Source of the DNA: Waterburya agarophytonicola KI4
Lineage (GTDB): Bacteria; Cyanobacteriota; Cyanobacteriia; Cyanobacteriales; Xenococcaceae
Assembly: GCF_020640915.1 (NCBI RefSeq)
Contig: NZ_JADWDC010000022.1
Coordinates: forward strand, 1-64,000
DNA length: 64,000 nucleotides
Direction of reading: 5' to 3'
The translations under genes were made by a program, and so were the position numbers. The notes under the pieces were generated by a model. The model was given only the letters and a program-made list of their open reading frames with translations. It did not search any database and had not been told where the DNA came from. Below are positions 5,893 through 29,690 of this stretch, in pieces (position 1 is the stretch's first letter; each line of letters opens with the position of its first letter).

Positions 5893-6990
5893 GTGTTAAA
5901 AAAAAATCAAATTAAACTATTTTTGGCGACTTCAATCGCGATCGCTATTGCTCATCATTCACCAACCGTCTTGGCTAGTAAGATCCAGACGAAAACCAGC
6001 GATCGTTTTACCTCTATAACTTTGAACGGGAAGATTATTCAATCTGCCAATCTAATTGCTAAAAAAAGTGGCGGGCGCAGTGGAGGGGGATCTTTCAAAA
6101 GCAGACCATCTCGCTCTCAAAAAAGTTCTCCCAGCAGAAACTCTAATCAACGCAAGTCAAGCTCTCCCAGTCGTAGCTATGATCAAAGAGATTCTACTTA
6201 TAGAGAACGCGATCGCACTTATCCCAGACATTCTAGCCCTACCTACTATCATCGAGGCACGACCCATAGTAGAGGAAGCTCTGGTTTTGGTAATTTTATT
6301 ATCTCAATTTTTATCTTAGTTTTTTTGGGGGGGCTAATTTTTGTTCTCTTTCATGTCTTTCGTCAAATGTTTGGCTCGAATTCTGATTCTTCGAGCAAGG
6401 CGGAGAGAAAAATTGCCCAAGAAAGAGATAACGATCGCGTGACAGTATCTTTATTGCAAATCGTTTTGTCTTCTGAGGCTCAAAAGATTCAACAAGATTT
6501 ATTGACATTGAGTACTAGGGTAGATACCAGTAGCGATGAGGGATTAATGGAGTTGATGCGAGAATCTGCCTTAATATTATTACGTAACGACCTTAATTGG
6601 ACTCACGTTTTAGCCAATTCTCATTCTTTAGATATCAGTCAAGCAGAACAAGAATTCGATCGATTGTCTTTAATCCAAAGAAGTAAATTTAGTGGAGAAA
6701 GTTTCAGCAATATAGATGGAGTGATCGAAACCAGACAAGCTCGTAATCATGATGAGTCGGGTTTTCCTGCTTATGTTGTAGTCACTTTGCTCTTTGGTAC
6801 GGCTGATGACAATGCCTTATTTGCTAAAATTCATAATTCAGAAACTCTCAAAGAAGTTTTACTTCAACTCTCTTCGATGCGAGAAGATTATCTAATGAAA
6901 TTTGAATTGCTGTGGACTCCCCAAACAGTCGATCGATATTTAACTGATGAGGAGTTGTTGATAGAATATACCGATGCTATGCCTCTATAG
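5893..6990 (+). CDS. DUF1517 family membrane protein
   Basis: A conserved cyanobacterial and plastid-lineage family of unknown function. The N-terminus is a hydrophobic signal-like segment ending near VLA. It is followed by a Ser/Arg/Tyr-rich low-complexity region (about residues 60-130 from the GTG start). A single strong membrane segment lies near residues 137-160, then the DUF1517 domain (about 175-365) containing VTVSLLQIVLSSEAQ and a FSNIDG segment. The open frame begins at TTG 5878, but GTG at 5893 gives a cleaner signal sequence, so I chose it. The 3' end overlaps the convergent short sugar-transferase gene by 14 bp. No enzymatic motif is visible. Confidence 0.8.
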   Translation: MLKKNQIKLFLATSIAIAIAHHSPTVLASKIQTKTSDRFTSITLNGKIIQSANLIAKKSGGRSGGGSFKSRPSRSQKSSPSRNSNQRKSSSPSRSYDQRDSTYRERDRTYPRHSSPTYYHRGTTHSRGSSGFGNFIISIFILVFLGGLIFVLFHVFRQMFGSNSDSSSKAERKIAQERDNDRVTVSLLQIVLSSEAQKIQQDLLTLSTRVDTSSDEGLMELMRESALILLRNDLNWTHVLANSHSLDISQAEQEFDRLSLIQRSKFSGESFSNIDGVIETRQARNHDESGFPAYVVVTLLFGTADDNALFAKIHNSETLKEVLLQLSSMREDYLMKFELLWTPQTVDRYLTDEELLIEYTDAMPL

Positions 6991-7621
6991 GATTAACTTC
7001 TACTCCATCCTGAGAATTAGCCTTAGAGCCTGTAAACTCAGTACAGGTTACGTGACCTTCCTTACTGATACCGTCTTTTTTGATAACCTTTTCTACGGTA
7101 GCAAATAAAATTTTCAAATCTAGCCACAGACTCCAATTATCCACATAAGCAACATCCATCTTAAATCTATCGTCCCAACCTAGAGTATTACGTCCGTTGG
7201 TTTGAGCTAATCCAGTAATACCTGGTAAAACTTGATGACGGCGCATTTGCTCTGGGGTATATAGATCGAGATATTTGGGTAACAAAGGACGGGGTCCGAC
7301 AAGACTCATATCTCCTTTGAGAACATTGAGTAATTGGGGCAATTCATCTAAGCTAGTTTTGCGAATTATTGAACCAAAGGGAGTCATGCGATCGCTATCG
7401 GGTAAGAAATTACCAGACTTGTCCCTTGCATCTGTCATAGTACGAAACTTGTAGAAAGTAAAAATTTTGCCGTCTTTACCAGGACGAAGTTGGGTAAAAA
7501 ATATGGGGCTGCCTAAGTTTACTCGGATTAAAATTGCCAAAATTAAAATCAACGGGGAAAACAACAATAAAGCGATCGCAGCAGCCAGGCGATCGACAGT
7601 GCTTTTAATTAATCTACTCAT
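6977..7621 (-). CDS. short sugar-phosphate transferase (monotopic PGT type)
   Basis: A 214-residue enzyme with only the bacterial sugar-transferase domain and one N-terminal hydrophobic re-entrant helix (residues 10-35). It would transfer a phosphosugar to a polyprenyl phosphate at the inner face of the membrane. Motifs are FFTQLRPGKDGK, YKFRTM, TSLDELPQLLNVLKGDMS, VGPRPLLPKYL and PGITGLAQTNGR. The catalytic Asp-Glu pair is in SLDELPQ. The last 14 bp overlap the end of the DUF1517 gene. Having both a long and a short priming enzyme in one locus suggests two glycan start sugars or a modifying role. Confidence 0.92.
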   Translation of the reverse strand: MSRLIKSTVDRLAAAIALLLFSPLILILAILIRVNLGSPIFFTQLRPGKDGKIFTFYKFRTMTDARDKSGNFLPDSDRMTPFGSIIRKTSLDELPQLLNVLKGDMSLVGPRPLLPKYLDLYTPEQMRRHQVLPGITGLAQTNGRNTLGWDDRFKMDVAYVDNWSLWLDLKILFATVEKVIKKDGISKEGHVTCTEFTGSKANSQDGVEVNPIEA

Positions 7622-8919: not shown

Positions 8920-9792
8920 CTAGCTAAAGAAATCAATCTTAATTCCTTTTTCTAACCATATTTTTTTCCAAGGGGAAAGATCGAGGTTTAATTCACTTTC
9001 TAACATCAATACATCTTGCTTGCATAAATTAAAAATCTCACTAAATTCATCTCGACTTAGTTGAGATTTTTTTTGCTTCTTGCTAGTGAGAAGCTGCTTT
9101 ACACCTAATTGCTTACCATAATCTACTATTTTATGTAGACCAGTATTGTGCAAAAGTTTTACTCCAGAATAGACTAATTTAGAAATACTATGGTTGACTG
9201 GAGCTTGACTGGCATTCGATCTTTTAGATAAGTCATAAGATACATTTTCCGCTTCTATTTCCAACTTATCTAATATTTCCAAAGCAAAATTATTGGGAGA
9301 TTCTTTTAATTTTTCAAAAAAAACAACTTCAACATTGTTTGAACCAAAAACTTTAATCCATCTAGATAAGTGAAAATAATAACGAGCAGTATCTAGTAAA
9401 ATTGGCTTGTCAGGCAATGCTGCTGCCAAACTAACCTCTGGTTCAATTCTGCCTCTTTGCTTCATATGAGAATAAAAAGATACGAGGCGAGATACTGGCT
9501 CTCTTAAAGTTACCAGAATTTTACATTCAGGATTGAAATCATAAATTCTTTGGGGTGCTGACTCTGAATTAAAATAACTTGGAGCTATTTCTCCCACTTT
9601 TTGGTTTTCTTGAATATCAGTAAAATGAGAATAATACCAATCTAAACCCTGATCATATTTCTTATCAAAAAAGAAAGTTTCTTTGACTTTGGTGGGCAAT
9701 GCAACTCCCTCATAATTAATCAAATAATCATAAATCCAGGTAGTTCCAGTTTTAAAAGGGCCAACTGCAATAAAATCTAATTTTTTCGACAT
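8920..9792 (-). CDS. sulfotransferase (PAPS-dependent)
   Basis: A 290-residue cytoplasmic enzyme expected to move sulfate from PAPS to a carbohydrate hydroxyl. The 5'-phosphosulfate-binding loop is GPFKTGTTWIYDYL near residues 11-24. The 3'-phosphate-binding segment is ILVTLREPVSRLVSFYSHMK near residue 93. HAD or P-loop kinase alternatives are excluded by this pair of motifs. It is the last gene of the minus-strand glycan run, 45 bp after the glycosyltransferase at 9838-10968. It is one of four sulfotransferases in the locus, each different in sequence, which points to sulfation at several positions or sugars. Confidence 0.88.
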   Translation of the reverse strand: MSKKLDFIAVGPFKTGTTWIYDYLINYEGVALPTKVKETFFFDKKYDQGLDWYYSHFTDIQENQKVGEIAPSYFNSESAPQRIYDFNPECKILVTLREPVSRLVSFYSHMKQRGRIEPEVSLAAALPDKPILLDTARYYFHLSRWIKVFGSNNVEVVFFEKLKESPNNFALEILDKLEIEAENVSYDLSKRSNASQAPVNHSISKLVYSGVKLLHNTGLHKIVDYGKQLGVKQLLTSKKQKKSQLSRDEFSEIFNLCKQDVLMLESELNLDLSPWKKIWLEKGIKIDFFS

Positions 9793-9837
9793 TATTTATT
9801 TGATAAATTTATCAATGAGTTAATTGAATCAATCTAA

Positions 9838-10968
9838 TTAATTTACTACACTTTGATAAATATGTTCGTATTCCTTGACAATAGAATCTAAAGCAAATTT
9901 TTCTACTATTCTATTTCGGGCAGCTTGACTTTTTTCTGCTCTAGCATCTGGCTCTAAATTAATTATTTCTTTCCAACCTTGGGCTAAAGCATTCGGGTCT
10001 TTCGGGGGAACAGCCTTTCCTGTATCTCCCACAATCCAACCAGAATCGCCAATATCCGTAACCACACAAGGAATTCCACAAGCCATTGCTTCTCCAATCA
10101 CTAAGGGGAATGCCTCGCCAAAAGCAGAAGAAGAAGTCAAAATATCTAAAGCTGGTGTAATTTGAGGAATATCTCGACGTTGCCCTAACAAATACACACT
10201 TTTACTAATATCCAACTCGGCGATTAAATCGGTTAAAGCCGAATTTTCACTATCTACATTAGTACCAATTAAAACAAACTTAGTATCAGGATATTCTGCC
10301 AACAATACTTTAGCCGCCTTTAATAGATTGGCATGGTCTTTCATCGGATGATATCGAGCCAAAGACCCAATCAAAAAAGTATCATCAGATATGCCCAATT
10401 CCTGACGGAACTTTTGTCTGATTTCAGCAGAAGGTTGAAATTTAGAAATGTCAAAACCATTAGGTACAACACAACTGTTTTCACGGTCATAACCTATTTT
10501 TTGGTGTTGACCTTGACTTTTTTCTGATACATAAGCCACCTTACTTACGTATTTAGAAGACCAACTACCAAAACGAATGATTCCTTGAGTTAGAGGTTTT
10601 TCTGAAGGTAAATCGTGAAGGGAATGATGAATACTCCACAAGACAGGAGTCTTTTTGCCACTAACGAAATTGAAAAACTGTGCTGCTAAATTTCCATGAT
10701 ACATCCAACCTTGAATCAGATCTGGTTCGGCTTGTTTAATTAAACCTACAACCTTTTTAACTGATGCTAAACTTGGCTTGCCTACCAACATTCCCGCACT
10801 ATGAACGGGTATGCCTAATTGTTCGATTTGTTCTCCGAAAACCCCTTTGTCCATCAATGAAATAATTGTCGGTTCAAAAAGGTCTCGATCTATCTTAGAC
10901 AAAAGATTATAGAGCATGACTTCCGCCCCACCCATGTTTAAACCAGTAGTCAAGTAAACTATTTTCAT
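9838..10968 (-). CDS. GT4-family glycosyltransferase
   Basis: A 376-residue retaining GT-B glycosyltransferase. The N-terminal domain begins with IVYLTTGLNMGGAEVMLYNLL, a typical acceptor-domain start with the Gly-rich loop. The C-terminal nucleotide-sugar domain has LIGSLARYHPMKDHANLL and the EX7E motif in GEAFPLVIGEAMACG. It would extend the lipid-linked repeat unit on the cytoplasmic membrane face. It is followed 45 bp downstream by a sulfotransferase and preceded by the polymerase. Donor and linkage cannot be assigned. Confidence 0.9.
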   Translation of the reverse strand: MKIVYLTTGLNMGGAEVMLYNLLSKIDRDLFEPTIISLMDKGVFGEQIEQLGIPVHSAGMLVGKPSLASVKKVVGLIKQAEPDLIQGWMYHGNLAAQFFNFVSGKKTPVLWSIHHSLHDLPSEKPLTQGIIRFGSWSSKYVSKVAYVSEKSQGQHQKIGYDRENSCVVPNGFDISKFQPSAEIRQKFRQELGISDDTFLIGSLARYHPMKDHANLLKAAKVLLAEYPDTKFVLIGTNVDSENSALTDLIAELDISKSVYLLGQRRDIPQITPALDILTSSSAFGEAFPLVIGEAMACGIPCVVTDIGDSGWIVGDTGKAVPPKDPNALAQGWKEIINLEPDARAEKSQAARNRIVEKFALDSIVKEYEHIYQSVVN

Positions 10969-11002
10969 GATTTTTATGGTGCTAAATCTGGTGTAAATAC
11001 AT

Positions 11003-12289
11003 CTAATACTTAGTTACTATGTCTTGTTCTAGGGCGCGATCGATTCTACTTTGTTTGCTCAAAACTGCCATAAAAGCGATCGACGTCAAAATGAAAAAAT
11101 TAGTAAAGACTGTATGACTAAATATGCCCCAAATCAAAGCATAAATTGTAAAAACAAGTGCATACTTTCGATGTTCTCCTTGGGCCTGCCATACAGAAGC
11201 CAAAATTAATAGAGGATAGATAAATATTCCCAAAAATCCATATTCAATCATTCGGTCGAGATAAATATTGTGAGATCTCGGTGCTTTATCCGAATCGGGT
11301 TTAATTCCTTCGTGTTCCCCGCTACCCAAGCCACTACCAAAGATAGGACTACTGGTGAACTTTTGCCAACCCAACTCCAATAATAGAATACGAGAATCTT
11401 CTTCCTCTTCTACTATTTCTTCACTTTCAGCAAAAGGATTGGCTATAACTCTAATCCTTTCAATCGTTCCTTCATTAAATATTTCTTCCCCATTAGGAGT
11501 TTTGATATAAGACAAATTATCAACTTGCGCCGAAACAATTGTAGCTGTCACCAAAATTGAAACTATTAATATTGGTAATTGGGCGACAGGAATAATTTTG
11601 ACCGCCATAAATAGCAAGACAATTAGTAACCAACATGCGATACCACCACGAGAAAAAGTTGCAACATTACCTATCAAGACAAATAAAGCATAAATCAAAC
11701 GATATTTTGGTTTAATTAAACCAATTGTGAAAATCAAGCCCATATTTAAACCACAGCTTGCCATATTCGGGTCAATATAAAAACCACCAGCTCTTCCTGG
11801 TACGTCTTGAACTTCTTGTAAAATTGTTGGTTTGAGAAATTGAGCTGTCAACAGAAAAACGTTGAAGAATGTGACTATTAAAACGCTAATTTTAGTAAAT
11901 TGTTGAACTACAGAATGTTCTGAAAAAATAAGCAACATCAAACTGATAAAAATCATCGATCTAATCTGATCTTCCATAATCTGCTGAATAGGAGCAGAAG
12001 AACTAGGCATAGCTAATACTACAATGGATGTCATTGCCAGATAAATAGCAAACCAAACAAAAATAGACCGAGGCAAGTATGGTAATTTTTTGAAGATTGA
12101 TGGATACAAAGGTACAGCCAAAAACAGAAATCCAATCACCCACAATAAAGGTATTCCTATACCATAAGCAGTCAAAACACCGTCTAGTTTGCTAAAAAAG
12201 ACCAATATTGCCGCTACTGCCACAAAACATTGGTAATTAATCAGGAAGTTGGTTTTTTGTTTATTAGTGTGCCGAGTTAAACTACTCAT
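11003..12289 (-). CDS. Wzy-like polysaccharide polymerase / O-antigen ligase family protein
   Basis: A 428-residue polytopic membrane protein with about ten to twelve hydrophobic segments. A large periplasmic loop (about residues 265-340) contains an acidic stretch with EEIVEEEEDS, then FGSGLGSGEH and PRSHNIYLDRMIEYGFLG. The His in SHNIYL followed by a helix is the signature of the Wzy_C/WaaL fold. In a locus with a flippase and glycosyltransferases, polymerisation of repeat units is more likely than ligation to lipid A. The order of genes (GTs, Wzy, GT, sulfotransferase) supports one operon. Confidence 0.85.
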   Translation of the reverse strand: MSSLTRHTNKQKTNFLINYQCFVAVAAILVFFSKLDGVLTAYGIGIPLLWVIGFLFLAVPLYPSIFKKLPYLPRSIFVWFAIYLAMTSIVVLAMPSSSAPIQQIMEDQIRSMIFISLMLLIFSEHSVVQQFTKISVLIVTFFNVFLLTAQFLKPTILQEVQDVPGRAGGFYIDPNMASCGLNMGLIFTIGLIKPKYRLIYALFVLIGNVATFSRGGIACWLLIVLLFMAVKIIPVAQLPILIVSILVTATIVSAQVDNLSYIKTPNGEEIFNEGTIERIRVIANPFAESEEIVEEEEDSRILLLELGWQKFTSSPIFGSGLGSGEHEGIKPDSDKAPRSHNIYLDRMIEYGFLGIFIYPLLILASVWQAQGEHRKYALVFTIYALIWGIFSHTVFTNFFILTSIAFMAVLSKQSRIDRALEQDIVTKY

Positions 12290-12322
12290 TATCTTTAATT
12301 AATTATTAATAGTTATTTAATT

Positions 12323-13429
12323 TTATTTTTTATAATCTAATAAGGTTTCGAGGTATTGAGGAACAATCTGCTCGGTTGAAAATATTTTAGCTCTTTGTTG
12401 CAAAGTATCTCTAGATGTTGGTTTGTCTAAGACATTTAACATGGCTTCTGATAAAGATTTACTATCTTGAATGGGAACTAAATAACCATATTTTCCTCCT
12501 GCCAAAATTTCCTCTGGACCACTAGGACAGTTGGTCGATACTACCGAACAACCGCAAGCCATTGCTTCTATCAAAGCAGTAGGCAATCCTTCATAGCGAG
12601 AAGATAGCACGAATGCAGTTACCCGATTCATATAGCCATAGGGATTATCAGCAAATCCTGGCAAATCGATATCATCCTTAACCCCTAAAGTATTAGCCAA
12701 TTCTTCTAATTCGCTTCTTAATTCTCCTTCACCTAAAATTATTAGTCGAGCAGCTTTTTGTTGTCTAACCAAAGCAAAGGCTCTAATCAAATTAACAAAA
12801 TCTTTTTGAGCAGTTAATCTCCCAACAGCTAAAAAAACAGGTAGCTCTCCAAACTTTAACCAAGGATGGGAAACAGGAGTATTGGCTTTTGCGAGTAATT
12901 CCTCATTAATGACTGGATTGTATATGGTTTTGACGGAGCCTGGGGCAAAATTCAATTGATTTTCTAAGTCAGCACTAACTCCTTCGGAAACTCCTATAAT
13001 GGCATCGGCACTGGGATAAAAACGCTCCATAAACCAAGGTGTTACCTTTGCCCTGAGGGAAGTGGCATCGGCTACAGACAAAGTGTTGTGTTCTACTACT
13101 GCCAATCTAGTTTTTGAACCCGCCAGCTTGTTAGCTAATAGAGCAATCACATTAGCATGACCGAGATGGGATAATAAAGCATCTGGTTGAGTATTTTTTA
13201 AATATTTAACCAATGGCAATATAGCAGTAGCAACCCGTGGAGACTGAAGATTAATAATATTGACTCCTTCTGGCACTTGCTCTAAAAAAGAACCTTCAGC
13301 TATACCTAATACTAAATCTAAGACTAGGTTTTTGTTGTCAACCATACCTTTAAGTAGGTTTACTGATACTCTTTCTGCACCCCCACCGTATAAATTGGGC
13401 AGAAAAAAAGCAATTCGTTGCTGAGACAT
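12323..13429 (-). CDS. GT4-family glycosyltransferase
   Basis: A 368-residue GT-B enzyme. The start is ATG at 13429, just after the upstream gene's stop and about eight bases past a GGGAGGA ribosome site; an upstream in-frame start at 13450 would overlap that gene by 20 bp. The N-terminus IAFFLPNLYGGGAERVSVNLL is the GT4 acceptor domain. FLAVGRLTAQKDFVNLIRAF and the EX7E motif EGLPTALIEAMACG lie in the donor domain. It is related to the adjacent enzyme at 13431-14561 (both have SCPSGPEE/SGPREL after the EX7E motif), suggesting an old duplication with divergence of specificity. Confidence 0.92.
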   Translation of the reverse strand: MSQQRIAFFLPNLYGGGAERVSVNLLKGMVDNKNLVLDLVLGIAEGSFLEQVPEGVNIINLQSPRVATAILPLVKYLKNTQPDALLSHLGHANVIALLANKLAGSKTRLAVVEHNTLSVADATSLRAKVTPWFMERFYPSADAIIGVSEGVSADLENQLNFAPGSVKTIYNPVINEELLAKANTPVSHPWLKFGELPVFLAVGRLTAQKDFVNLIRAFALVRQQKAARLIILGEGELRSELEELANTLGVKDDIDLPGFADNPYGYMNRVTAFVLSSRYEGLPTALIEAMACGCSVVSTNCPSGPEEILAGGKYGYLVPIQDSKSLSEAMLNVLDKPTSRDTLQQRAKIFSTEQIVPQYLETLLDYKK

Positions 13430-13430
13430 T

Positions 13431-14561
13431 TTATTTTCCTCCCCTACCATGTTTTTCTAGGATTGCTTTCTGACTCAAATCAGTCCAACCTTGGATAATT
13501 TTCTCCAAACTAAATCTAGTGCCAACTTCAGGAGCAGACTTAGCAAAATGCTCTCTTTCTTCGGGGTTTGTAATTAAACGCTCGATCGCTTTAGTTAATG
13601 CAACTTCATCCTGATTGGGTATTAAGATACCATCAACCCCATCTCTGACAAGCTCTCTTGGTCCACTAGGACAATCTGTGGCAATTACTGGCAATCCACA
13701 TAACATTGCTTCGCCATGAGCCATGGGAAATCCTTCAAAACGAGAAGACATCACAAAAAATTGAGCGCGTTCCATTAATAGGAAAGGATTTTTGACTCTT
13801 CCTGGTAATACTACCTGCTCTCCTAAATTTAATTCGGCTTTTAGTTCTTCTAATTCCCTGCGAAGTTCTCCTTCTCCCAGGATAATTAGCTGCCAGTCTG
13901 GATATCGGGGCGCGACTTTGGCAAAAGCCTTGAGCAAAATATCAAAACCTTTTTGATTGGTTAAACGCCCCATGCTCATAATCCATTTGCGATCGCTATG
14001 AACTCCTGTAGGAATTTCAATTTCGGAACTAGCATTTTTGGATACGAAAAAGGGATTATATACTACTTCTTTTTTACTTTTAGGCAACCAAGTAAAATAG
14101 TCTTCTACTCCTTGGGATACGCTAACTAGTTTGGTAGCAAAGGGATATACAAAACGTCTGAGAGTTTCCCAGAATTTACCGTAAGAGATTAAATTGGGGT
14201 CGCAATGTTCTGTAATCAAAACTGGATATTTAGTTTTAAGAGTAGCTAACACCGTCAAAATATTGGTTTCGGTTAAGTGTGCCATGACAATATCTGGTTC
14301 GCTTAACTTAATGGCTTTTCTGAGGGCAGACACTCGCTGGAGATTGCTTTTAATCGCATCGAGAGGATTCTTGGATACGCCCATAATTCCCAAGGCTATT
14401 CTCTTAACGCCTGGGGGAAGCTGATAAAAATCTGTATCTTTTTCAGTTCCAGTAATAACTGTGACTTGATGTCCTTGTAGCTGAAATCCTTCTGCTAGAG
14501 AAACAACAACTCTTTCTGCTCCACCACAAAATAGAGATGGGGTTACTAAGGTAATTTTCAT
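13431..14561 (-). CDS. GT4-family glycosyltransferase
   Basis: A 376-residue GT-B enzyme. The N-terminus reads ITLVTPSLFCGGAERVVVSLA. The donor domain has IMSMGRLTNQKGFDILLKAF and EX7E in EGFPMAHGEAMLCG, followed by DCPSGPRELVRDG. It resembles PglH/GalNAc-type or WcaL-like extenders in layout, but the sugar cannot be assigned. It is followed directly by the second GT4 gene (one base between stop and preferred start) and lies 11 bp after a sulfotransferase, so co-transcription and coupled translation are likely. Confidence 0.92.
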   Translation of the reverse strand: MKITLVTPSLFCGGAERVVVSLAEGFQLQGHQVTVITGTEKDTDFYQLPPGVKRIALGIMGVSKNPLDAIKSNLQRVSALRKAIKLSEPDIVMAHLTETNILTVLATLKTKYPVLITEHCDPNLISYGKFWETLRRFVYPFATKLVSVSQGVEDYFTWLPKSKKEVVYNPFFVSKNASSEIEIPTGVHSDRKWIMSMGRLTNQKGFDILLKAFAKVAPRYPDWQLIILGEGELRRELEELKAELNLGEQVVLPGRVKNPFLLMERAQFFVMSSRFEGFPMAHGEAMLCGLPVIATDCPSGPRELVRDGVDGILIPNQDEVALTKAIERLITNPEEREHFAKSAPEVGTRFSLEKIIQGWTDLSQKAILEKHGRGGK

Positions 14562-14572
14562 CTTTTTGTTGG

Positions 14573-15493
14573 TTACTTATTTAGAGATTTTGCTGTTAGC
14601 CAGTGACTCAAATCTCGATTGATCAATTGGGCAAGTTTTTGGATATCGGTACTAAACTCTTCCATCATATCGGCTCGCAAATCCTCAGAGAGGGGTTCGC
14701 GGGCTGCAACCTTAGTATTGAAAGAACGGATTGTATCGAGAATACCCAGTTCTTTAATACCTAACATATCTCTAGCTTTGAGAGCCACGTTAGTTAATAA
14801 AGCAGGAGGTTTTGCTGTGAAATTACCAACTGCACCCATTTTGTGAGTTTTGTTTTCGTTAATTCTTACAAATTCAGTACGTTCGTCATTAGGTACGGCT
14901 AAAAATTCTAGAACTTCGTCATAGACATCTTTAGTTGATTTAACAAAGTCTTCAAACAGAATTATTTTGACCTGTTCGGCAGGGAAAATAGTTTGTAATC
15001 TTTCAACTTGCTCTCCCAGCTTTCCCATTTCGGCGTATTGTAAAAAGGCGGCTTCTCTGCATTGAGAAGGAATTTGCTTTCCTTGCTTTCGAGTTGCTTG
15101 TAATCTCCAAGCTTTCTCAAAACTTTTTTCACTTTCATCAGCAGTAAAAACTAGTTGAGAATGAAAAGAATAAATCATGTCTACGGGGTTGCGTAGCATG
15201 ACAATTATCTTTGCTTGTGAATCGTATTCTTTAATTTTGTCTAAAGCTACAGTCGAACAAAGATAGAAAACAGAACCTTCTCCAATTGCTGTATGTTTTG
15301 CGGTACTTTCAGAAAATAAGCCAGAGTATTCCGACCAAGTTTTGGTTACGCGATATTGTTCAAAATCGAAAGTAAAGTAATGTGGTTCTTTGGGTTCGCT
15401 AATATAAATATTGGGATGATCTCTTAGATATTCACTCAAAGCAGTTGTGCCACATTTGGGCGCACCAGCAATAAAAAAATTGGGTTTATTCAT
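14573..15493 (-). CDS. sulfotransferase domain protein
   Basis: A 306-residue PAPS-dependent sulfotransferase. FFIAGAPKCGTTALSEYLRDHPNI gives the PAPS 5'-loop near residue 12. KIIVMLRNPVDMIYSFHSQ gives the 3'-phosphate site near residue 105. EPHYFTFDFEQY resembles the substrate-side segment of heparan-type N-deacetylase/sulfotransferases. It sits 11 bp upstream of two glycosyltransferases in the same direction. A role in sulfating the glycan or its intermediate is inferred from context. Confidence 0.9.
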   Translation of the reverse strand: MNKPNFFIAGAPKCGTTALSEYLRDHPNIYISEPKEPHYFTFDFEQYRVTKTWSEYSGLFSESTAKHTAIGEGSVFYLCSTVALDKIKEYDSQAKIIVMLRNPVDMIYSFHSQLVFTADESEKSFEKAWRLQATRKQGKQIPSQCREAAFLQYAEMGKLGEQVERLQTIFPAEQVKIILFEDFVKSTKDVYDEVLEFLAVPNDERTEFVRINENKTHKMGAVGNFTAKPPALLTNVALKARDMLGIKELGILDTIRSFNTKVAAREPLSEDLRADMMEEFSTDIQKLAQLINRDLSHWLTAKSLNK

Positions 15494-15639
15494 AATTTGG
15501 AAGATCTCGGTAATAAAATTTGATTTTATCGATCGCTAAGGGCAATTTATCAAAGTAATAAGCTGATGGTGTTACTGAATGGCGATCGATCTAAAGTTCA
15601 GTAGCTACAGAAAAAGGCAATTGTTCGGATGGCTCAATT

Positions 15640-16398
15640 TTAACCCTTTAAAAACTTCGTGTAACTAGACCCCGACAAAGTCTCTAAAACCTCATCATAG
15701 TTAGCTATTTTATCGGAATATTTTCCTTGATTTATGCGCTTTAGTTCACTTTTAAAAGTTATAGAATCGCTGCTTACTTCTAGAAACTCAGCGACAGAAC
15801 ATAAGACTTGGTTATAATCTTCCTGCATTGATTCGTAGGTTATTTCTAGTACTGACAGAGGCATTATCTTGAGTAAAGAACTGAAAAGCTTGTTATTTCT
15901 CGTGCATCTATCTAAATCTTTGATGAGATAAGAAGTGTCAATAGTGACTTGTCTGGTTTTAGACTGTACTGTATTAGAGTGAGCTATGTGGTGTTGGTTT
16001 TTTGCTGCTCTAGAAATTATGACATCGAGATAATTTTGACGAATTAAATGAATAATTCGATAATTATCTAAAAGTAGTTTTAGCATTATTTCAGGATTTT
16101 CCTGAATCTGATTGTACATGATCTTGAAGCCGATAATATCAAAATTAGTATCAGATTTGTAGCTATCTAAAATATCTAAATACTTAAACGCAGTAAAAAT
16201 AGATTTTTTATTTGCATTAGTTTTGTAATCGTAATATGTAGGAAATTGCTTATCTGTCCAATTTGGTCGATCAGCTCTCCAAATAAAGGGTTCTTCAAAG
16301 GATTTTATTTTAGGATGACTATCTAGAAGAGTTGCCAACCAAGTTGAGCCACTCCTAGGGGTTGTAATTACGCAGAACTTTGGTTTTTTCTTAGACAT
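15640..16398 (-). CDS. sulfotransferase (Stf0/NodH-like)
   Basis: A 252-residue protein starting at ATG 16398 (MSKKKPKFCVITTPRSGSTW). An open extension to 16476 exists but encodes an atypical hydrophobic leader and is not needed. The PAPS loop TTPRSGSTWLATLLDSHPKI is clear near residue 12. EEPFIW follows as in Stf0/LPS sulfotransferases. The 3'-phosphate site is in IIHLIRQNYLDVIISR near residue 125. The family is more like trehalose or lipid sulfotransferases than its three neighbours. The gene is AT-rich. Gaps of 122 and 146 bp separate it from its neighbours, larger than elsewhere in the run. Confidence 0.83.
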   Translation of the reverse strand: MSKKKPKFCVITTPRSGSTWLATLLDSHPKIKSFEEPFIWRADRPNWTDKQFPTYYDYKTNANKKSIFTAFKYLDILDSYKSDTNFDIIGFKIMYNQIQENPEIMLKLLLDNYRIIHLIRQNYLDVIISRAAKNQHHIAHSNTVQSKTRQVTIDTSYLIKDLDRCTRNNKLFSSLLKIMPLSVLEITYESMQEDYNQVLCSVAEFLEVSSDSITFKSELKRINQGKYSDKIANYDEVLETLSGSSYTKFLKG

Positions 16399-16520
16399 AA
16401 TACTTGGTTGATACTTGAGTGAAATATTTATTAATAATACTAAGAAATGGGAGACAAATTTAATCAATTGGGTCAAATTTTATAGATTCAGGTTATTACC
16501 TAAAATCAATTAAACTTATT

Positions 16521-17432
16521 TTATTTCCATGGTGATAAGTCTAACTTAAAAGCCTCAGCCAGTTTTTGATTGTGGGGTCTAAAGTAATTTTCCAAACGTT
16601 TTAAAGATTCAGTTCCCGCAGGCTCGGGAGGAGTAGTGTTGAACTTAAAATAAAATGATTTTAATAATCCTCGAATCTGACTCGTACCTAACAATGGAGC
16701 AAGTTTGAGTAACAATTTATGAGTAAATCTATTTTTAATAGCTAAGGTTTGAGTTCTTTTTTCAAAGTAAAATTCTTGATAAAAATCAGCATCAATCCCT
16801 ATATTTTGGGCGAGTTTAATTAGAGTAGCTTGAGGATTTGACACCATATCTTCAAACAAGATAATGTGAATCTTGGATAGAGGAAATCGTTCCGCCCAAG
16901 GAGCAATAAAATTGTAGTAGCAATTATTGGGTAATTGAGTATTTAACCATTCGTAGAAAAAATCATTTGGGGGATAGTTTAGTTTTTTGACTAATTCTCC
17001 CGTTTCATCCAACAATAAATCTGTCACTTGCTCAAAGGTAAGATTGCTATCCAAACGGGCTAAATTATTCTGAACAAAGCTAAAAGAGGAAAATACTCTT
17101 TTAGCAGGTTTGCGTAAGAGAAAAACAACATGGGGTTGAGTTTCACATTCTGCAAAAAAGTCTAAAGCAGTTTGTTGATAAATATAGTGAGGAGTTGCTT
17201 CCAAAACAATTTTGATATCTTCAGGACAGTTGGGGAAAAAAGCTTCGTATTTTTCGATGCCGTGCAGATTATAGTTAGCCTCTGGGCGCAACAAAGAACT
17301 ATCGCGATCGATAAAGTAAAAAGTTTCTTTACAGGGTGCGCCATAAACTTCTGGATGGGCAGCAAGCCAATGAAATAGAGAACTACTTCCTGCTTTAGGT
17401 GCCCCAGCAATAATCAAATTTGGTAATTTCAT
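16521..17432 (-). CDS. sulfotransferase domain protein
   Basis: A 303-residue PAPS-dependent enzyme. NLIIAGAPKAGSSSLFHWLA gives the PAPS loop near residue 9. HVVFLLRKPAKRVFSSFSF gives the 3'-phosphate site near residue 110. A CKETFYFIDRD segment lies between them. IHIILFEDMVSNPQATL is the usual downstream strand-helix of the fold. It follows the flippase gene by 29 bp. It is the first of three sulfotransferases transcribed in a row. Confidence 0.9.
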   Translation of the reverse strand: MKLPNLIIAGAPKAGSSSLFHWLAAHPEVYGAPCKETFYFIDRDSSLLRPEANYNLHGIEKYEAFFPNCPEDIKIVLEATPHYIYQQTALDFFAECETQPHVVFLLRKPAKRVFSSFSFVQNNLARLDSNLTFEQVTDLLLDETGELVKKLNYPPNDFFYEWLNTQLPNNCYYNFIAPWAERFPLSKIHIILFEDMVSNPQATLIKLAQNIGIDADFYQEFYFEKRTQTLAIKNRFTHKLLLKLAPLLGTSQIRGLLKSFYFKFNTTPPEPAGTESLKRLENYFRPHNQKLAEAFKLDLSPWK

Positions 17433-17461: not shown

Positions 17462-18832
17462 CTATTTATTTTTGGTTTTGGGACTACCAAAAGAATAAAG
17501 AGAAATGCCTAACTTTTTCTTGACAGAAATAGCCTTGATAATGTTAATCACAATCAAGCTAGTAGTGGTTGCTGTTGCTGCACCATTAATTCCCCATCGA
17601 GGAATTAGCACTGAATTTAAAATTATATTTAAAATTGCGCTCAAGCCTACAGCGATCGCCGTCTCATTTTGATGTCCCGTCATATTAAGCAGTAAACCAA
17701 CTGCTCCTGTAAAAGAAGTAAAAATCGTACCTATAATTAGAATATTCATCGCTGTACGACCAGGAAGAAATTCCGAGCCAAAGATTAATAATACTTGATT
17801 ACCCAAAAGCATTAACAGACCTCCCGTGACCAAAGAAAACAAGAACACACTTAACATACTTTTGCGAACTATTCTTTCTAGCTGCCGAATTTTACCTTCA
17901 GAATAAAGAGTGGCAATGTTGGGACCGAGAACACTGTTAGCTGCATGATGGATAAAAACAGTTAATCTAGTAATACCCAAAAGTACTGCATAAATTCCCA
18001 CGGCTTCTACACCTTTGATCGAACCTAACATGATAATATCGATCCGGGAATTGAGTAGTTGTGATGCCCCCAGAAACATAAAAGGCAAACCATCAGCAAT
18101 CCATTTTTTGGTGTTATATTTTGGTGTAACTTGACTTACTTCTGGAGGAAGAGATTGCAACAACCATCTAGTACCGATAATTAAAGTGACAATCGAAGCA
18201 AAAATCTTGATTCCTAATACCCAAAAAACATTAAAGCGATCGTTGAATAAGAAATAGGTGGCGACAGTTAAGGCAATAACAATAATTGGTGAAAATAAAG
18301 AGTCTGGCATTTGCCCCAAAACAATTTTACGCAGACCCTTCATTGCTCCTAATCGCAGATTGCGTAAAGACATGATAGGAACGGCGACCATTGATAAAGC
18401 GATCGCCAAAACTACAGTAGAATCTGAATCTCCCTTAAGATTCCAAGCTGCAATTATTGCTATTAAAGTAATAGTAATACCAGCACTCAACACCATCAAA
18501 TTAGCCCAACGTAGAAATCCGCCGATTAGATCGTACTGAGCTTTGTTACGATATATGGCAATTTCTCGAACTATTAATTGATCGAGTCCCAGCGCTGCGG
18601 GAATACTTAATAAGTTTGCCCAGGTCGTAGCATAAGAGTAAGTTCCCAATCCAGATGTTCCCAAAAAACGAGCGAAGATAACGCTCATCACAAAAGCTAA
18701 GAAAGCAGAGGCAACTTTCAAGCCTAGAGATCCAGCCACACCTTTGATTAGTTGATTTTTAAGATGGTTAGTTTGTCCTTGGGATGCCCAAATTAGCTGG
18801 ATTTTTTTGGTAATTGCTTTGAACATTGACAA
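17462..18832 (-). CDS. Wzx-type oligosaccharide flippase
   Basis: A 456-residue membrane protein with about 12 to 14 helices, of the MOP/MATE-like polysaccharide transporter superfamily. The N-terminus has KGVAGSLGLKVASAFLAF and the family segment FARFLGTSGLGTYSYATTW. It would flip lipid-linked repeat units across the inner membrane. It is the first gene of the minus-strand run of glycan genes, so a promoter probably lies in the 427 bp upstream. Its C-terminus is short and basic (KKLGISLYSFGSPKTKNK). Confidence 0.92.
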   Translation of the reverse strand: MSMFKAITKKIQLIWASQGQTNHLKNQLIKGVAGSLGLKVASAFLAFVMSVIFARFLGTSGLGTYSYATTWANLLSIPAALGLDQLIVREIAIYRNKAQYDLIGGFLRWANLMVLSAGITITLIAIIAAWNLKGDSDSTVVLAIALSMVAVPIMSLRNLRLGAMKGLRKIVLGQMPDSLFSPIIVIALTVATYFLFNDRFNVFWVLGIKIFASIVTLIIGTRWLLQSLPPEVSQVTPKYNTKKWIADGLPFMFLGASQLLNSRIDIIMLGSIKGVEAVGIYAVLLGITRLTVFIHHAANSVLGPNIATLYSEGKIRQLERIVRKSMLSVFLFSLVTGGLLMLLGNQVLLIFGSEFLPGRTAMNILIIGTIFTSFTGAVGLLLNMTGHQNETAIAVGLSAILNIILNSVLIPRWGINGAATATTTSLIVINIIKAISVKKKLGISLYSFGSPKTKNK

Positions 18833-19259: not shown

Positions 19260-22166
19260 TTAATTACTTTTTTTAAACATAGCCTGGCTTTTACCAGTCA
19301 TGAGCTTTATAACATCATTACTATTTAAGGGCTGTTTTAAGTAATATCCTTGACCGTATTCACAAAGAATACCTTTTACTTTATTTAATTGAGGTATATT
19401 TTCAATTCCAGTTGCAGTAATTTCTAGGCCATAGTTTTCTATATCGATTATAATATCTTGCAGAACTTCCCAAGCCTGATGCTCTTGTTCGATTCGTGAC
19501 ATCAAGTGTCGGTCTATTTTGACGCGATCAAATTCTCGGTAAAGCAAATTTGGTTGAACGCGACCATATAAAGATGCAACTCTGCCAAAGTTATCAATTT
19601 GTAGTTGAATTCCCAATCTTTTTAACTGGGGCAAAACATTCATTGCTACTTGAGGACTTTCTCCCAATAGATATTCTGATATCTCTAAAGAAATTAATTT
19701 AGGATTGATTTCGTGTTTATCCAAGTTATAACTTAAATGCTTAACCAAACTATTTTGCAATATTCCTTGGCTAGGAATATTAATACTAATGCCAACATCT
19801 GATGCAAAACTAGAATTTTCTTGCCAAGATTTTAACTGCATACATACAGCTTCAACAATCCAACGTTCAATAGGAACAAGTAAACCTGATTCTTCAGCTG
19901 CGCCCATAAATTTTTGGGGCATAATTAAACCAAATTCTGGATGATTCCAGCGGAGTAAAGCTTCAAACTCTTTTATTTTACCAGTCTGAAGATTCATTAC
20001 AGGTTGATAATAAAGGCTGAATTCTTGATTTTCTAATGCGTGTTTCAATCCTTCGTCTAGCTCTGTTGAGGTTAATCGGTTAGATGAGGTGGAATGGGGT
20101 AAGCTCAACTGAGAGGCAAAATCACCAAAATCACTTTCTGAAATAGCAGTTATAGGATTTAGATCGCAAGTTTGACTGATAATTTTCTCTAAGTTATCTT
20201 GAGCGAGTTCTATATTAATTTGTTGATATTTGGTTTTGTATCCTACTACTAATCGATCTAGTAGGAATACGATTAAATTGGTGTCGTTTTTCTGCGCTGC
20301 TTCGCACAAAATATCTATACTCAAGTCAAAGTTTTGCGGAACAATTCGGCTGGCATTTTTAACAACTAAAACCTTTTCGTGAGAAGTACTTTCATATTCT
20401 TCTCCTTCTACTAGTAACTCTTCATAAAGTTTTTCACCTGGTCGCAATCCCGTAAAGACGATCTCAATATCTTTACCAACTTCATATCCAGAAAGGTGAA
20501 TTAAATCTTTAGCCAAGTCAACAATTTTGACTGGTTGACCCATATTGAGCATAAAGATTTGGCCTTGACTATTTTTATTGCTTAAAACAGAAGCCTGTAG
20601 CACTAACTGCACCGCTTCGGGAATAGTCATAAAGTAGCGAGTAATTTCGGGATGGGTGATGGTTACAGGACCACCTTTGGCTATTTGCTGTTTGAACGTA
20701 GGAACTACACTACCTCGACTGCCTAAAACATTACCAAAGCGTACCACAGCATACGGTCTACCGCTAATTTGAGCAGCTTTTAAGACTAACATTTCAGCAG
20801 TCCGCTTACTCGCTCCCATGACGTTGGTAGGGTTAACTGCCTTGTCAGTAGAAATCATGACAAAGTTGCCCACATTGTATTTGATGGCGAGATCTAAAAG
20901 ATTTTTTGTCCCCATCACATTGTTGGTGATAGCCTCGGGGGGATTAAGCTCCATAAGAGGTACGTGCTTGTGAGCGGCTGCGTGAAATACGATATCTGGC
21001 TTATAGGTACGAAAAGCGTTTTCTACTCTATCTTTGATTCGGAGGTCGGCAATAAATGGAATCAACTCAGTTAACTCTTTGTCTGGTTGTTCTTGTTGTT
21101 TGAGTATTTGTAATACTTGATCTAGTTCTTGTCTAATGTTAAAGATAGAGTTTTCGCCATGTCCGAGCAAGATTATTTGAGAGGGACGACAACGGAAGAT
21201 TTGACGACATAACTCGCTACCAATTGACCCTCCTGCACCAGTAATCAGAACTTTTTTACCTTCTAACAGCTTAAAAACGCCTTGGGCATCGGTTTGAATT
21301 GGTTCACGACGCAACAAATCTTCAATTTTGACTTCTCTAAGGGTATTGACTTTATTACTATTATCAAGAATTTCGTTGGTAGCTGGCAATGTATTAACAG
21401 CAACGCCAATTGCTTGACAGACATCAACAATTTCTCGAATCACCTTACCCGAAGTGGTAGGCATGGCAATTACTACTTGACGAATGTTCTGGGCAGCTAC
21501 TATTTCAGGAATTTGGAAGCGGTTGCCAACTACAGGAAGTCCTTGAATATTTAAGCCTTTTTTCTGAGAGTTATCATCAACAAAGGCAATAGGATTGAAT
21601 CCTAGTTTTGGGTTACGACGCATTTCTTGAAGGATAGATACTCCTGCATCTCCTGCTCCTACAATTAAAACGCGATCGCGTCGATAAAAGTTCTTATTTT
21701 GCTGTTTTTTTCTTTCGGCTGCTCTAATACTAAAGCGAACACCTCCAATTAATATGAAAGTGAGAATACCGTCTAAAAGAGTTAAGGAGCGAGGTACTAA
21801 AAATCTTTCTAACTCTGTTATGTATTCTAAGACGCTTAAGATCATAGTATTGGCTACAACCGCACCCGCAGTTAAAACTGCAATTTGGGTTAATTCATCA
21901 ATACTCGCATATTTCCAATATCGTTTGTAGAATCCACCGAAGGTAAAGATTATTAATTTAACGCAAGAAAAGATAATAGTCGCAATAATCAAACCAGTGC
22001 GATATTGCCCTAAAATCATCAGATCGTCTAGTCGAAGAATGATACCCAACAAAGGTGTTATGGAAAAAATAAGCGCATCTAAAAGGAAAAAATGACGATT
22101 ATTTAATCCCAGTAATTTTTTATCTAAACTCTTTAAGTTTTTATCTATCGTTGTTTTAAATTTCAT
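19260..22166 (-). CDS. CapD/FlaA1-type nucleotide-sugar dehydratase fused to a degenerate EAL domain
   Basis: A 968-residue protein. Residues about 25-145 hold four membrane helices; 160-290 a Rossmann-like domain starting RVLIVGAGDAG. Residues about 300-600 are a membrane-anchored 4,6-dehydratase/epimerase domain with VLITGAGGSIGSE (near 307), HAAAHKHVPLME and ISTDKAVNPTNVMGASKR (near 435). So far this is a typical FlaA1/CapD/PglF protein acting on UDP-HexNAc. A linker of about 100 residues follows, then a C-terminal EAL domain (about 705-960). EFEALLRW (near 733) and KIDR are kept. The usual DDFGTG is DNFGRV (near 858), and the usual AEGVE is ATGIE (near 918), so phosphodiesterase activity is doubtful. 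The domain may bind c-di-GMP or a partner. A good ribosome site (AAGGAAC) precedes ATG at 22166. Confidence 0.9.
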   Translation of the reverse strand: MKFKTTIDKNLKSLDKKLLGLNNRHFFLLDALIFSITPLLGIILRLDDLMILGQYRTGLIIATIIFSCVKLIIFTFGGFYKRYWKYASIDELTQIAVLTAGAVVANTMILSVLEYITELERFLVPRSLTLLDGILTFILIGGVRFSIRAAERKKQQNKNFYRRDRVLIVGAGDAGVSILQEMRRNPKLGFNPIAFVDDNSQKKGLNIQGLPVVGNRFQIPEIVAAQNIRQVVIAMPTTSGKVIREIVDVCQAIGVAVNTLPATNEILDNSNKVNTLREVKIEDLLRREPIQTDAQGVFKLLEGKKVLITGAGGSIGSELCRQIFRCRPSQIILLGHGENSIFNIRQELDQVLQILKQQEQPDKELTELIPFIADLRIKDRVENAFRTYKPDIVFHAAAHKHVPLMELNPPEAITNNVMGTKNLLDLAIKYNVGNFVMISTDKAVNPTNVMGASKRTAEMLVLKAAQISGRPYAVVRFGNVLGSRGSVVPTFKQQIAKGGPVTITHPEITRYFMTIPEAVQLVLQASVLSNKNSQGQIFMLNMGQPVKIVDLAKDLIHLSGYEVGKDIEIVFTGLRPGEKLYEELLVEGEEYESTSHEKVLVVKNASRIVPQNFDLSIDILCEAAQKNDTNLIVFLLDRLVVGYKTKYQQINIELAQDNLEKIISQTCDLNPITAISESDFGDFASQLSLPHSTSSNRLTSTELDEGLKHALENQEFSLYYQPVMNLQTGKIKEFEALLRWNHPEFGLIMPQKFMGAAEESGLLVPIERWIVEAVCMQLKSWQENSSFASDVGISINIPSQGILQNSLVKHLSYNLDKHEINPKLISLEISEYLLGESPQVAMNVLPQLKRLGIQLQIDNFGRVASLYGRVQPNLLYREFDRVKIDRHLMSRIEQEHQAWEVLQDIIIDIENYGLEITATGIENIPQLNKVKGILCEYGQGYYLKQPLNSNDVIKLMTGKSQAMFKKSN

Positions 22167-27392: not shown

Positions 27393-29690
27393 TTAGAAAT
27401 TAGCACTGCCGACGCTATTATTGGCACTTTTTTCTTTACTGGATACATTGGGTAAATCCTGGTTAACTTGATTATTCTTTTGCCAATTATCGTTATTTTG
27501 AGTAGCTGAATTGTTTTTGGTGTAATAGCTTTTACCATAACGACCATGATAAGAGTAGCGATCAAAGTCAGCTGCTTTGACCCCATTAATTACCATTCCC
27601 AATACTTTTTGTCCTGTCGTAGCTAAGGTTTCCTGGGCTAATTCCGCGCTTTCTTGCTCGACGACTCCAGGTCTGGTAACAAACAAGATTCCATCTACTA
27701 ATTTGCTCAGAGTCAGTACGTCGGCGGTGACGGGTAAAGGTGGTGCATCAATCAAAATTAGATCGTAGTCTCGACGAGAACGACCAACCAAATCACTCAA
27801 CCCAGGAGAATCCAACAGTGCAAGGGGGTTGGAATTGACCATTCCACTAGTTAAAAGACTCAAATTAGGCATTGGTTTGGCGATGACGGAGGCAAGACTT
27901 ACATTACTAGTTATTATGTCTTTTAAACCCTTATTATTGCCTACTCCCCACAAACGATGTTGGGAAGAGCGACGTAAATCGCCATCTATCAATAATACTT
28001 TACGGTCTAATTGAGCGATCGCTGCTGCTAAATTAGCTGTAACCGTTGATTTTCCTTCTTCGGGAACGGAACTTGTGACTAAAATAACCTTGGGTGGCTT
28101 ATCGCTAGTCAAGAATTTTAAGTTGGCTTGAATCATGCGATAAACTTCACTAGAAAAGGAGTCGGGTTCTTCTCTGGTAACAATTCTACCTTGATAATTA
28201 GGTGCTTCTAAAGGAATGATGCCAATGGTTTGATAAGAAAACTTCTTCTTGATTTCTGCCAAGGTTTTTAAGGAACGGTCTTGCATTTCTAGCAGAACAA
28301 CTGATAAGTTAGCCAAAAACGCACCCAAGACAAGACCCAAGCCAAGTAGCATTGTTCTACCAGAAGCACCTTTTTCTGGAACAGAGGAATACTCAACAAC
28401 TTTGGCATTACCGCTTTCTTGGCTGGCTGCTATTTGAACTTTCTGCAAGTTATCCAGTAAGGTTTCTAGGGTATTACCTGCTGCTTCTGCATTACGAATT
28501 AATTCTTGTTCTTGTTTTTCTAATCTGGGGATATCTTTAGCTCGTTTTAAATAGTTCTGTTGAGATTGATACAAAGAAGTAACTTGTCTTTGTAGACTGA
28601 GTTCGTCAATTTTGAGAGTAATGAATTTTTCTAATTGATTTTCTTTGATACCATTGTTTTCTTGCAATAATCCTTGAGATACGTTAATGCCCTGACCAAC
28701 CGTATTGGCAATTAGTCCTTTAAGTTGACTGTTGAGGTCATTTTTCTTTTCTGTCAGACTAATAATACTGGGATGTTCTTCACTAAATCTCTGGCGTTCT
28801 TGAGCCAAGCTAGATTCTGTTTCGGTCAATTGTCCTAAAATACTCTGTACTTCCGGAGAAGCAGCTAATTGATCTGTGGCAACAGCTTGGTTAAGGTCTA
28901 AACCTAACTGACTTTGTAAAGCACTGGTTTGAGCTTGTAAGCCTTGTAACTCAGAACCCGTGGTAGATATCTGTTGATTTAATGCTCCCAAGTTAGTTAC
29001 TAGTCCTTTTTTCTCTTCAGTTAAATCGACTATATCGTTTTCGCTTCTAAAAGCTGATATGTTTTGTTCTGCTTGTTCTACTTTGGATTCTATAGTGGGT
29101 AGCTCTCGATTAATAAAATCTTTGGCTGCTTCTGGCTCTGATTGGTTGCCTCTAATTTGCTCTTGAATATAGACATCCATCAGAGTGTTGACTACTTCAG
29201 CAGCAATTTTAGGATCGGGATGTTTGTATCTAACTTCAACTACATCTGTTCCACCAATTAACTCCGTACTTAGTTTTTTGCGGAAATCATCGGTTTTTAA
29301 AGGGTTGTTTTCGTCGTCGGTAAGTTTTTGACGGTCGATTACCTGTTGGATTACGGGTTCAGATTCTAGTACTTGGATTTGGGTGCTGACCGGAGTTTGA
29401 TTAGGCAGAATTGTATCTAATCTGCCTGCATTCTCACCAATTCCCACTTGATCGGCGGCACTAAGCTGTTTGAAAACTAATTTGCCTTCTCCTTGATATG
29501 TTTTTTTCTGTAATAAACTCAATCCCCCCGTCACTCCCAAGGTGAGAAGAAATATGGCTAAAGCTGGTTTCCACCGTCTTTTTAATTTAACTAAATATTC
29601 GCTTAAATTTACATCAAGACTATCTCGCGAAGAAGTTGGAGACGAACTGGAGTTATTTATATTTTTATCCTTAGAGTTATTACTCAACAT
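27393..29690 (-). CDS. polysaccharide co-polymerase tyrosine autokinase (Wzc-like BY-kinase)
   Basis: A 765-residue inner-membrane protein that controls chain length and export in Wzx/Wzy pathways. The Wzz domain and first membrane helix lie at about residues 28-130. A long periplasmic coiled-coil region with a GumC/CapB-like layout spans about 190-430, and a second helix lies near 445. The cytoplasmic BY-kinase has Walker A SSVPEEGKST (near 540), Walker A' VLLIDGDLRR and Walker B LILIDAPP. A C-terminal tyrosine cluster DFDRYSYHGRYGKSYYTK (near 707) is the usual autophosphorylation site. It lies about 5 kb from the glycan locus, on the same strand, and probably serves it. Confidence 0.92.
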   Translation of the reverse strand: MLSNNSKDKNINNSSSSPTSSRDSLDVNLSEYLVKLKRRWKPALAIFLLTLGVTGGLSLLQKKTYQGEGKLVFKQLSAADQVGIGENAGRLDTILPNQTPVSTQIQVLESEPVIQQVIDRQKLTDDENNPLKTDDFRKKLSTELIGGTDVVEVRYKHPDPKIAAEVVNTLMDVYIQEQIRGNQSEPEAAKDFINRELPTIESKVEQAEQNISAFRSENDIVDLTEEKKGLVTNLGALNQQISTTGSELQGLQAQTSALQSQLGLDLNQAVATDQLAASPEVQSILGQLTETESSLAQERQRFSEEHPSIISLTEKKNDLNSQLKGLIANTVGQGINVSQGLLQENNGIKENQLEKFITLKIDELSLQRQVTSLYQSQQNYLKRAKDIPRLEKQEQELIRNAEAAGNTLETLLDNLQKVQIAASQESGNAKVVEYSSVPEKGASGRTMLLGLGLVLGAFLANLSVVLLEMQDRSLKTLAEIKKKFSYQTIGIIPLEAPNYQGRIVTREEPDSFSSEVYRMIQANLKFLTSDKPPKVILVTSSVPEEGKSTVTANLAAAIAQLDRKVLLIDGDLRRSSQHRLWGVGNNKGLKDIITSNVSLASVIAKPMPNLSLLTSGMVNSNPLALLDSPGLSDLVGRSRRDYDLILIDAPPLPVTADVLTLSKLVDGILFVTRPGVVEQESAELAQETLATTGQKVLGMVINGVKAADFDRYSYHGRYGKSYYTKNNSATQNNDNWQKNNQVNQDLPNVSSKEKSANNSVGSANF

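Follow-up and report, generated by a model that had tools for sequence, protein, structure and literature searches.

The window, which is the whole stretch of 64,000 nucleotides analyzed here and nearly the entire contig C15 (64,029 bases) of a 5.1 Mb genome that is 99.98% complete, encodes a sugar-nucleotide dehydratase and an EAL domain in one protein, read from an uninterrupted ATG frame of 968 codons on the minus strand (19260–22166). The reading that we favor, and which we hold to be somewhat probable, is that of a WbpM/PglF-like membrane UDP-GlcNAc 4,6-dehydratase whose own EAL domain is a non-catalytic receptor that binds c-di-GMP and gates the enzyme for the precursor of a Wzx/Wzy polysaccharide. 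The wider proposal, that sugar-nucleotide dehydratases gated by c-di-GMP form an ancient family in cyanobacteria, with a pseudo-phosphodiesterase as the joined allosteric switch on Wzx/Wzy precursor supply, is more tentative, and we would put its chances slightly below even. An EAL domain that seems stripped of catalysis, keeps its pocket motifs, and is joined to a sugar-nucleotide enzyme is, we believe, best read as a receptor domain.

All three Pfam domains of the window protein (CoA_binding_3, Polysacc_synt_2, and EAL) exceed their cut-offs, with 395 bits for Polysacc_synt_2 and 181 bits for EAL; together with the ATG frame, this bears out the sequence-only reading of one 968-codon frame holding a dehydratase, a linker, and a full EAL domain (Table 1). 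The four hydrophobic N-terminal stretches, located by the Kyte–Doolittle scale in the window protein only, agree with the membrane anchor of the WbpM/PglF type. A sequencing or assembly join, which the earlier reading had itself raised as a danger, is rejected, because the same fusion is intact in 45 proteins, some of them encoded on contigs of 4.5, 5.0, and 8.3 Mb, and because one copy is carried by a complete plasmid, NZ_AP017566.1, from Pseudanabaena sp. ABRG5-3. That reading also knew of no standard family with this architecture. In agreement, none of the 25 NCBIfam models listed, of 37 that matched, reaches its cut-off for the window protein; the architecture is, however, far from unique, since it is intact in 39 of 388 genomes searched in the order and in 45 proteins overall.

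Table 1. Features of the fused gene and of the surrounding polysaccharide locus (window coordinates).
Feature	Coordinates	Strand	Basis
Fused dehydratase–EAL gene, 968 aa	19260..22166	−	Frame and Pfam
Four hydrophobic stretches of the N-terminal part (aa 26–140), probably membrane helices	21747..22091	−	Hydropathy
CoA_binding_3 domain (aa 89–258)	21393..21902	−	Pfam
Polysacc_synt_2 catalytic domain with TDKAVNPTNVMGASK (aa 306–603)	20358..21251	−	Pfam
Dehydratase tail, conserved to about aa 643, then variable linker to aa 706	20049..20357	−	Alignment
Degenerate EAL domain (aa 707–946); Asp replaced by N859 and Glu by T919, pocket motifs retained	19329..20048	−	Pfam, alignment, EAL model
Wzx-like flippase (Polysacc_synt), next gene downstream	17462..18832	−	Pfam
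Three sulfotransferase-like genes (14573–15493, 15640–16476, 16521–17432)	14573..17432	−	Pfam
Three GT4-like glycosyltransferases (9838–10968, 12323–13450, 13431–14561) and Wzy_C gene (11003–12289)	9838..14561	−	Pfam
Fourth sulfotransferase-like gene	8920..9792	−	Pfam
Bac_transf priming sugar-phosphate transferase	6977..7621	−	
Wzz/Wzc-type co-polymerase with tyrosine autokinase	27393..29690	−	Pfam, NCBIfam

The dehydratase is typed by its active site, TDKAVNPTNVMGASK, which has the T-D-K...M-x3-K pattern. In its account of these enzymes, the review PMC8987622 gives TDKxnMx3K as the signature of WbpM/PglF, in which the usual tyrosine is absent, and Yx3K as that of FlaA1/PseB. All 45 fused proteins carry TDK...Mx3K, and all have methionine at the tyrosine position of the inverting FlaA1/PseB type; since the signature is the former and not Yx3K, the initial assignment as FlaA1/CapD-type has to be corrected, and judged by its active-site residues the enzyme is of the WbpM/PglF type, not of the FlaA1 type. 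The PseB model scores the window protein at 197.1 bits, against a cut-off of 407.75, and the nearest solved dehydratase by sequence is PglF (WlaL; 5bju, E 9e-86). The substrate is presumably UDP-GlcNAc. With the WbpM/PglF UDP-GlcNAc 4,6-dehydratases it shares the N-terminal membrane part and the signature, and it differs from them in its C-terminal EAL, as the relevant parts of PMC8987622 mention no C-terminal regulatory domain for WbpM or PglF. The genome has a single strong match to Polysacc_synt_2 (398.8 bits, the next being 62.3), so the fused dehydratase is probably the only enzyme of its kind in the cell.

The residues of the EAL domain were compared over 45 intact fused proteins, 39 from the order search (the window protein included), five from a class search, and that of Pseudanabaena ABRG5-3, a set that contains identical EALs (the one from genome G519 equals that of ABRG5-3). 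Left out were G091, with the dehydratase start missing, G003, with a broken frame, and G615, a class-search protein matched over 195–942. As had been called from the letters alone, the window EAL keeps E735-A-L-L-R-W740 and K883-I-D, and has Asn859 at the second Asp of DDFG and Thr919 at the Glu of AEGxE. Position 859 is Asp in none of the 45 fused EALs (N 26, H 11, K 4, R 2, Q 2), and position 919 is Glu in none (T 35, V 4, A 3, S 1, M 1, L 1), so that these two features of an active EAL phosphodiesterase are absent throughout. Other features of an active EAL, namely the Glu of EAL, the Asn, the Glu of LEITE, and the first Asp, occur in 45/45 each and the Lys of KID in 42/45, and the window protein has all of them. 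Unchanged in 45/45 are the motif residues in or beside the pocket, Q721, P722, E735, R739, W740, N796, E828, D858, E922, Q939, and G940, of which E735, N796, E828, and D858 are, we assume, the binders of the first metal. Loop 6 is altered, the canonical Gly863 and Tyr869 being found in 10/45 each. The genome has 14 other EALs, and 54 positions are conserved in 12 or more of these; of the 54, only Thr830, Asp859, and Glu919 stand at 0/45 in the fused EALs.

These other EALs keep the Asp in 13 of 14 and the Glu in 13 of 14. The one without both, L137, lies in a response-regulator-like REC-GGDEF-EAL-like frame (L327, 2943–4826, on contig C85) with DN for DD and ATG for AEG; since this EAL is not joined to a dehydratase, the loss is not special to the fusion, which counts against the receptor reading, as does the replacement of K883 by Ser in 3/45 fused EALs and the loss of D885 in 6/45. 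As to what the lost residues do, the Asp pair of BlrP1 is described as binding metal and its Lys323 as activating water, with degenerate compound helices frequent among EALs without activity (PMC3989770); the Asp pair of Bd1971 is called catalytic, and c-di-GMP was raised in a strain whose two Asp had been replaced by Ala (PMC6717892); and absence of the EGVE catalytic base is taken to predict that an EAL is inactive as a phosphodiesterase (PMC12900916). Judged by its residues, the loss of catalysis in the fused EALs is well supported. It is very improbable that the domain retains a slow cleavage of c-di-GMP or pGpG through a changed use of metal, thereby lowering c-di-GMP near the enzyme: E735, N796, E828, and D858 are indeed kept throughout, but the second Asp and the AEGxE Glu are missing just as consistently, and the published EGVE rule (PMC12900916) predicts inactivity.

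FimX and LapD are known examples of receptors in which a degenerate EAL has kept its binding of c-di-GMP (PMC7288161, PMC3032553). FimX is reported to contact the ligand via Q463, R481, E653, Q673, and G674, among others (PMC7288161), and these map to Q721, R739, E922, Q939, and G940 of the window protein by motif and spacing, not by superposition, with the same Gln–Arg spacing (18) and a Glu–Gln spacing that differs by three. The likeness to FimX and LapD lies in the kept EAL fold, the changed hydrolysis residues, and the retained Gln of YQP, EAL-motif Arg, and late Gln-Gly, the FimX contacts of PMC7288161. FimX and LapD are, on the other hand, described in PMC7288161 and PMC3032553 as GGDEF-EAL proteins acting on pili or a protease pathway, whereas here an EAL without GGDEF sits on a metabolic enzyme, and LapD is described as having KVL where the EAL motif of the window protein is intact.

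The structural modeling that had been suggested was run on the EAL domain only, with an alignment of 44 rows, the other 43 being canonical EALs of viral contigs found with canonical patterns; a full-length alignment was dropped, its EAL rows being out of register with the EAL region, and the model thus shows no domain arrangement. It has a confident EAL fold (mean pLDDT 89.7, pTM 0.89) with lower confidence at model residues 171–180, which are loop 6, and Foldseek places it closest to the c-di-GMP complex 3n3t_B (E 2.8e-24, rmsd 1.6), with the FimX complex 3hv8 in 48th place. By Pfam, model, and Foldseek, the fold thus appears intact, and with catalytic residues lost and pocket motifs kept the fused EALs have the features of a degenerate receptor, although a confident EAL fold alone, being a model, does not show c-di-GMP binding.

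Conservation of the pocket residues may likewise reflect demands of the fold, a point against the receptor reading, and the EAL could be a ligand-blind docking or dimerization module that places the dehydratase beside partners in the glycan machinery. In LapD and FimX, EAL surfaces are reported to mediate dimerization and contacts with other proteins (PMC3989770, PMC3032553), and the fused family has an altered loop 6/compound-helix region, a frequent trait of EALs without activity (PMC3989770). A pure docking module, however, would hardly need Q721, E735, R739, N796, E828, D858, E922, Q939, and G940 unchanged in 45/45, and we regard this alternative as rather unlikely.

The order search returned 80 matches in 388 genomes at E ≤1e-130, which by frame length are 39 fused, two with a truncated EAL, 37 without EAL, one broken, and one without the dehydratase start but with an EAL (G091, whose two altered sites are Asn and Ile). 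By family, the fused form makes up 3/3 in f15, 2/2 in f16, nine in f18 (plus the one without dehydratase start), 11 in f1 (with two lacking the EAL and one broken), 11 in f2 (with one lacking it), and three in f32 (with two truncated and three lacking it), while the EAL is missing from the single match in f10 and from 30/30 in f33. Within the window's own genus, 7/13 genomes carry the gene (six intact, one broken), a patchy distribution. The class search, over 388 genomes that are partly the same as the order set, gave 37 matches at the same E, from which five further fused proteins were read. Among the best 5,000 records of the plasmid collection, one covers at least 80% of the protein: the copy in Pseudanabaena sp. 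ABRG5-3 (95% at 45% identity), annotated merely as “polysaccharide biosynthesis protein”. This plasmid gene (L220, 11962–14814) sits between polysaccharide tyrosine autokinase and polyketide/peptide synthetase genes. Among a further 80 matches listed, most of them dehydratases from other phyla, 79 (all but L142) show the dehydratase motif, and none of their frames has room for a C-terminal EAL; Pseudanabaena sp. ABRG5-3 is the one named carrier of the fusion among the matches listed. On two MAG contigs, one labeled Phaeospirillum and the other Clostridiales, a dehydratase and a separate EAL lie on the same strand within about 3 kb (L147, 2678–4570 and 6001–6744; L181, 3268–5163 and 223–945).

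That the dehydratase is met so often without EAL (37/80 matches in the order, 30/30 in f33), and in similar glycan loci, means that the enzyme can do without the EAL and counts against the receptor reading. So does the truncation of the EAL in two f32 genomes (L073 and L078, in G057 and G170), where the EALLRW half and the C-terminal motifs are gone.

In a tree with the 14 same-genome EALs and eight viral-contig EALs, where 65 of 67 rows differ in sequence, the 45 fused EALs are one group (bootstrap 99, SH-aLRT 90). The L137 EAL is their sister at 88/91; a special kinship was considered, but its branch is long. The dehydratase tree, of the quick kind without bootstrap and with L222 (a copy of G116) and G091 dropped, needs nine changes of the fused label (47 rows, the two truncated ones included), has the fused Pseudanabaena group as the first to split among the cyanobacterial rows (SH-aLRT 82), and places Nostoc foliaceum FACHB-393 among the f33 rows. 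Together with Pseudanabaena sp. ABRG5-3, this Nostoc supplies the nearest named genes, by which the window genome and its relatives are taken to be cyanobacterial. One early fusion with repeated losses is the simplest reading that this suggests; transfer may also have played a part, one copy being on a plasmid.

The fused EAL is under purifying selection. Its dN/dS is 0.06–0.38 in 13 of 14 pairs, the fourteenth having too few changes, and that of the dehydratase is 0.05–0.34 in the same pairs, with synonymous distances near or above 1 in some of them. The medians over the 13 pairs, 0.168 for the EAL vs. 0.082 for the dehydratase, show that the EAL evolves faster, again a point against the receptor reading, and one that, together with the repeated losses and the two truncated remnants, would suit an EAL that is a decaying, role-less leftover of an old fusion. 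Decay is nonetheless quite improbable in our view: dN/dS is well below 1, a single EAL clade is retained across several families and in Pseudanabaenales, and three conserved positions are lost in every member while eleven motif residues are lost in none.

Downstream of the fused gene, past a 427-base gap, the minus strand carries the Wzx gene, then three sulfotransferase genes, two GT4 genes, the Wzy gene, another GT4 gene, and the fourth sulfotransferase gene. Past the last of these come an opposite-strand acyltransferase gene and the priming transferase; Wzc lies upstream of the fused gene, beyond other genes. In a check for a c-di-GMP riboswitch, no Rfam family reached its gathering score within the window, and a promoter scan was uninformative, with 17 sites vs. 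a mean of 16.0 in shuffles. Elsewhere in the window, a 531-aa frame (40469–42064) has no Pfam match at E ≤0.001. The four sulfotransferase-like genes (8920–17432) in one Wzx/Wzy-type cluster suggest a sulfated polysaccharide. Cyanobacterial sulfotransferase genes are reported to lie mostly in putative extracellular polysaccharide clusters (PMC8205485), and from this pattern and the gene content a sulfated product of the window cluster is likely. The Synechan (xss) cluster of Synechocystis is alike in being a Wzx/Wzy locus with sulfotransferases; it differs in that the word “dehydratase” is absent from the accessible text of PMC8205485 and the control described there is transcriptional.

The position beside glycan genes, noted at the outset for the window locus, holds more widely: with window proteins as queries at E ≤1e-10, a glycan gene is found nearby in 38/39 fused, 34/38 solo, and 2/2 truncated loci, vs. 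2/14 regions around other EALs of the genome. This count used stretches of mostly about 8 kb on each side (12 kb for ABRG5-3), several of them ending at contig ends, with the five class loci left out and G091 counted as solo by length. Fused and solo loci being alike, the context goes with the dehydratase, with or without EAL, and is no argument for the EAL itself.

Each of the 14 other EALs in this genome is encoded in one open frame together with a GGDEF; the fused EAL is not. With 26 GGDEF matches in its genome, the cell probably makes c-di-GMP; a local diguanylate cyclase partner was looked for, and none of the 26 lies on the contig of the fused gene. In the receptor reading, hydrolysis would have been lost with the second metal-binding Asp, the AEGxE Glu, and the altered loop 6, and the pocket motifs retained. 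c-di-GMP from elsewhere in the cell would then bind the fused EAL, which given the kind of enzyme presumably faces the cytoplasm; the bound ligand would shift EAL packing or dimerization and so gate the dehydratase; and the gated dehydratase would determine how much 4-keto-6-deoxy amino sugar is available to the Wzx/Wzy polysaccharide. That the control is activating is a guess. Of the original suggestion, a c-di-GMP sensor or docking module acting on the joined enzyme, the non-catalytic EAL is strengthened by the two substitutions in 45/45, the invariant pocket motifs, and the glycan loci, while we infer c-di-GMP binding and its coupling to the dehydratase.

Direct control of glycans by c-di-GMP has been described for glycosyltransferases (NfrB, PMC8669469; BgsA), PelD (PMC7288161), and glycogen breakdown (GlgX, PMC9530166). 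NfrB of E. coli (GT2-MshEN) is, like the fused protein, a surface-sugar enzyme with a C-terminal domain for c-di-GMP, reported to bind in NfrB (PMC8669469) and predicted to do so here; it is described as a glycosyltransferase with an MshEN sensor, whereas here an EAL would be the sensor and precursor synthesis the controlled step. GlgX of Streptomyces is described as a carbohydrate enzyme gated directly by c-di-GMP, as we propose for the dehydratase–EAL protein; it differs as a glycogen-debranching enzyme for which the consulted portions of PMC9530166 name no EAL domain. Excerpts from the open-licence PubMed Central literature gave no description of a dehydratase–EAL fusion, which is weak evidence of absence, and in a Microcystis census of c-di-GMP proteins neither “epimerase” nor “dehydratase” occurs in the accessible text (PMC7063779).

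The family is a warning not to take every EAL gene for a phosphodiesterase. If our reading is true, it would provide a concrete target for cyanobacterial c-di-GMP signaling in Wzx/Wzy polysaccharides, and a receptor fused to the enzyme that makes the sugar nucleotide would move c-di-GMP control to the supply of the repeat-unit precursor, not polymerization or transcription.
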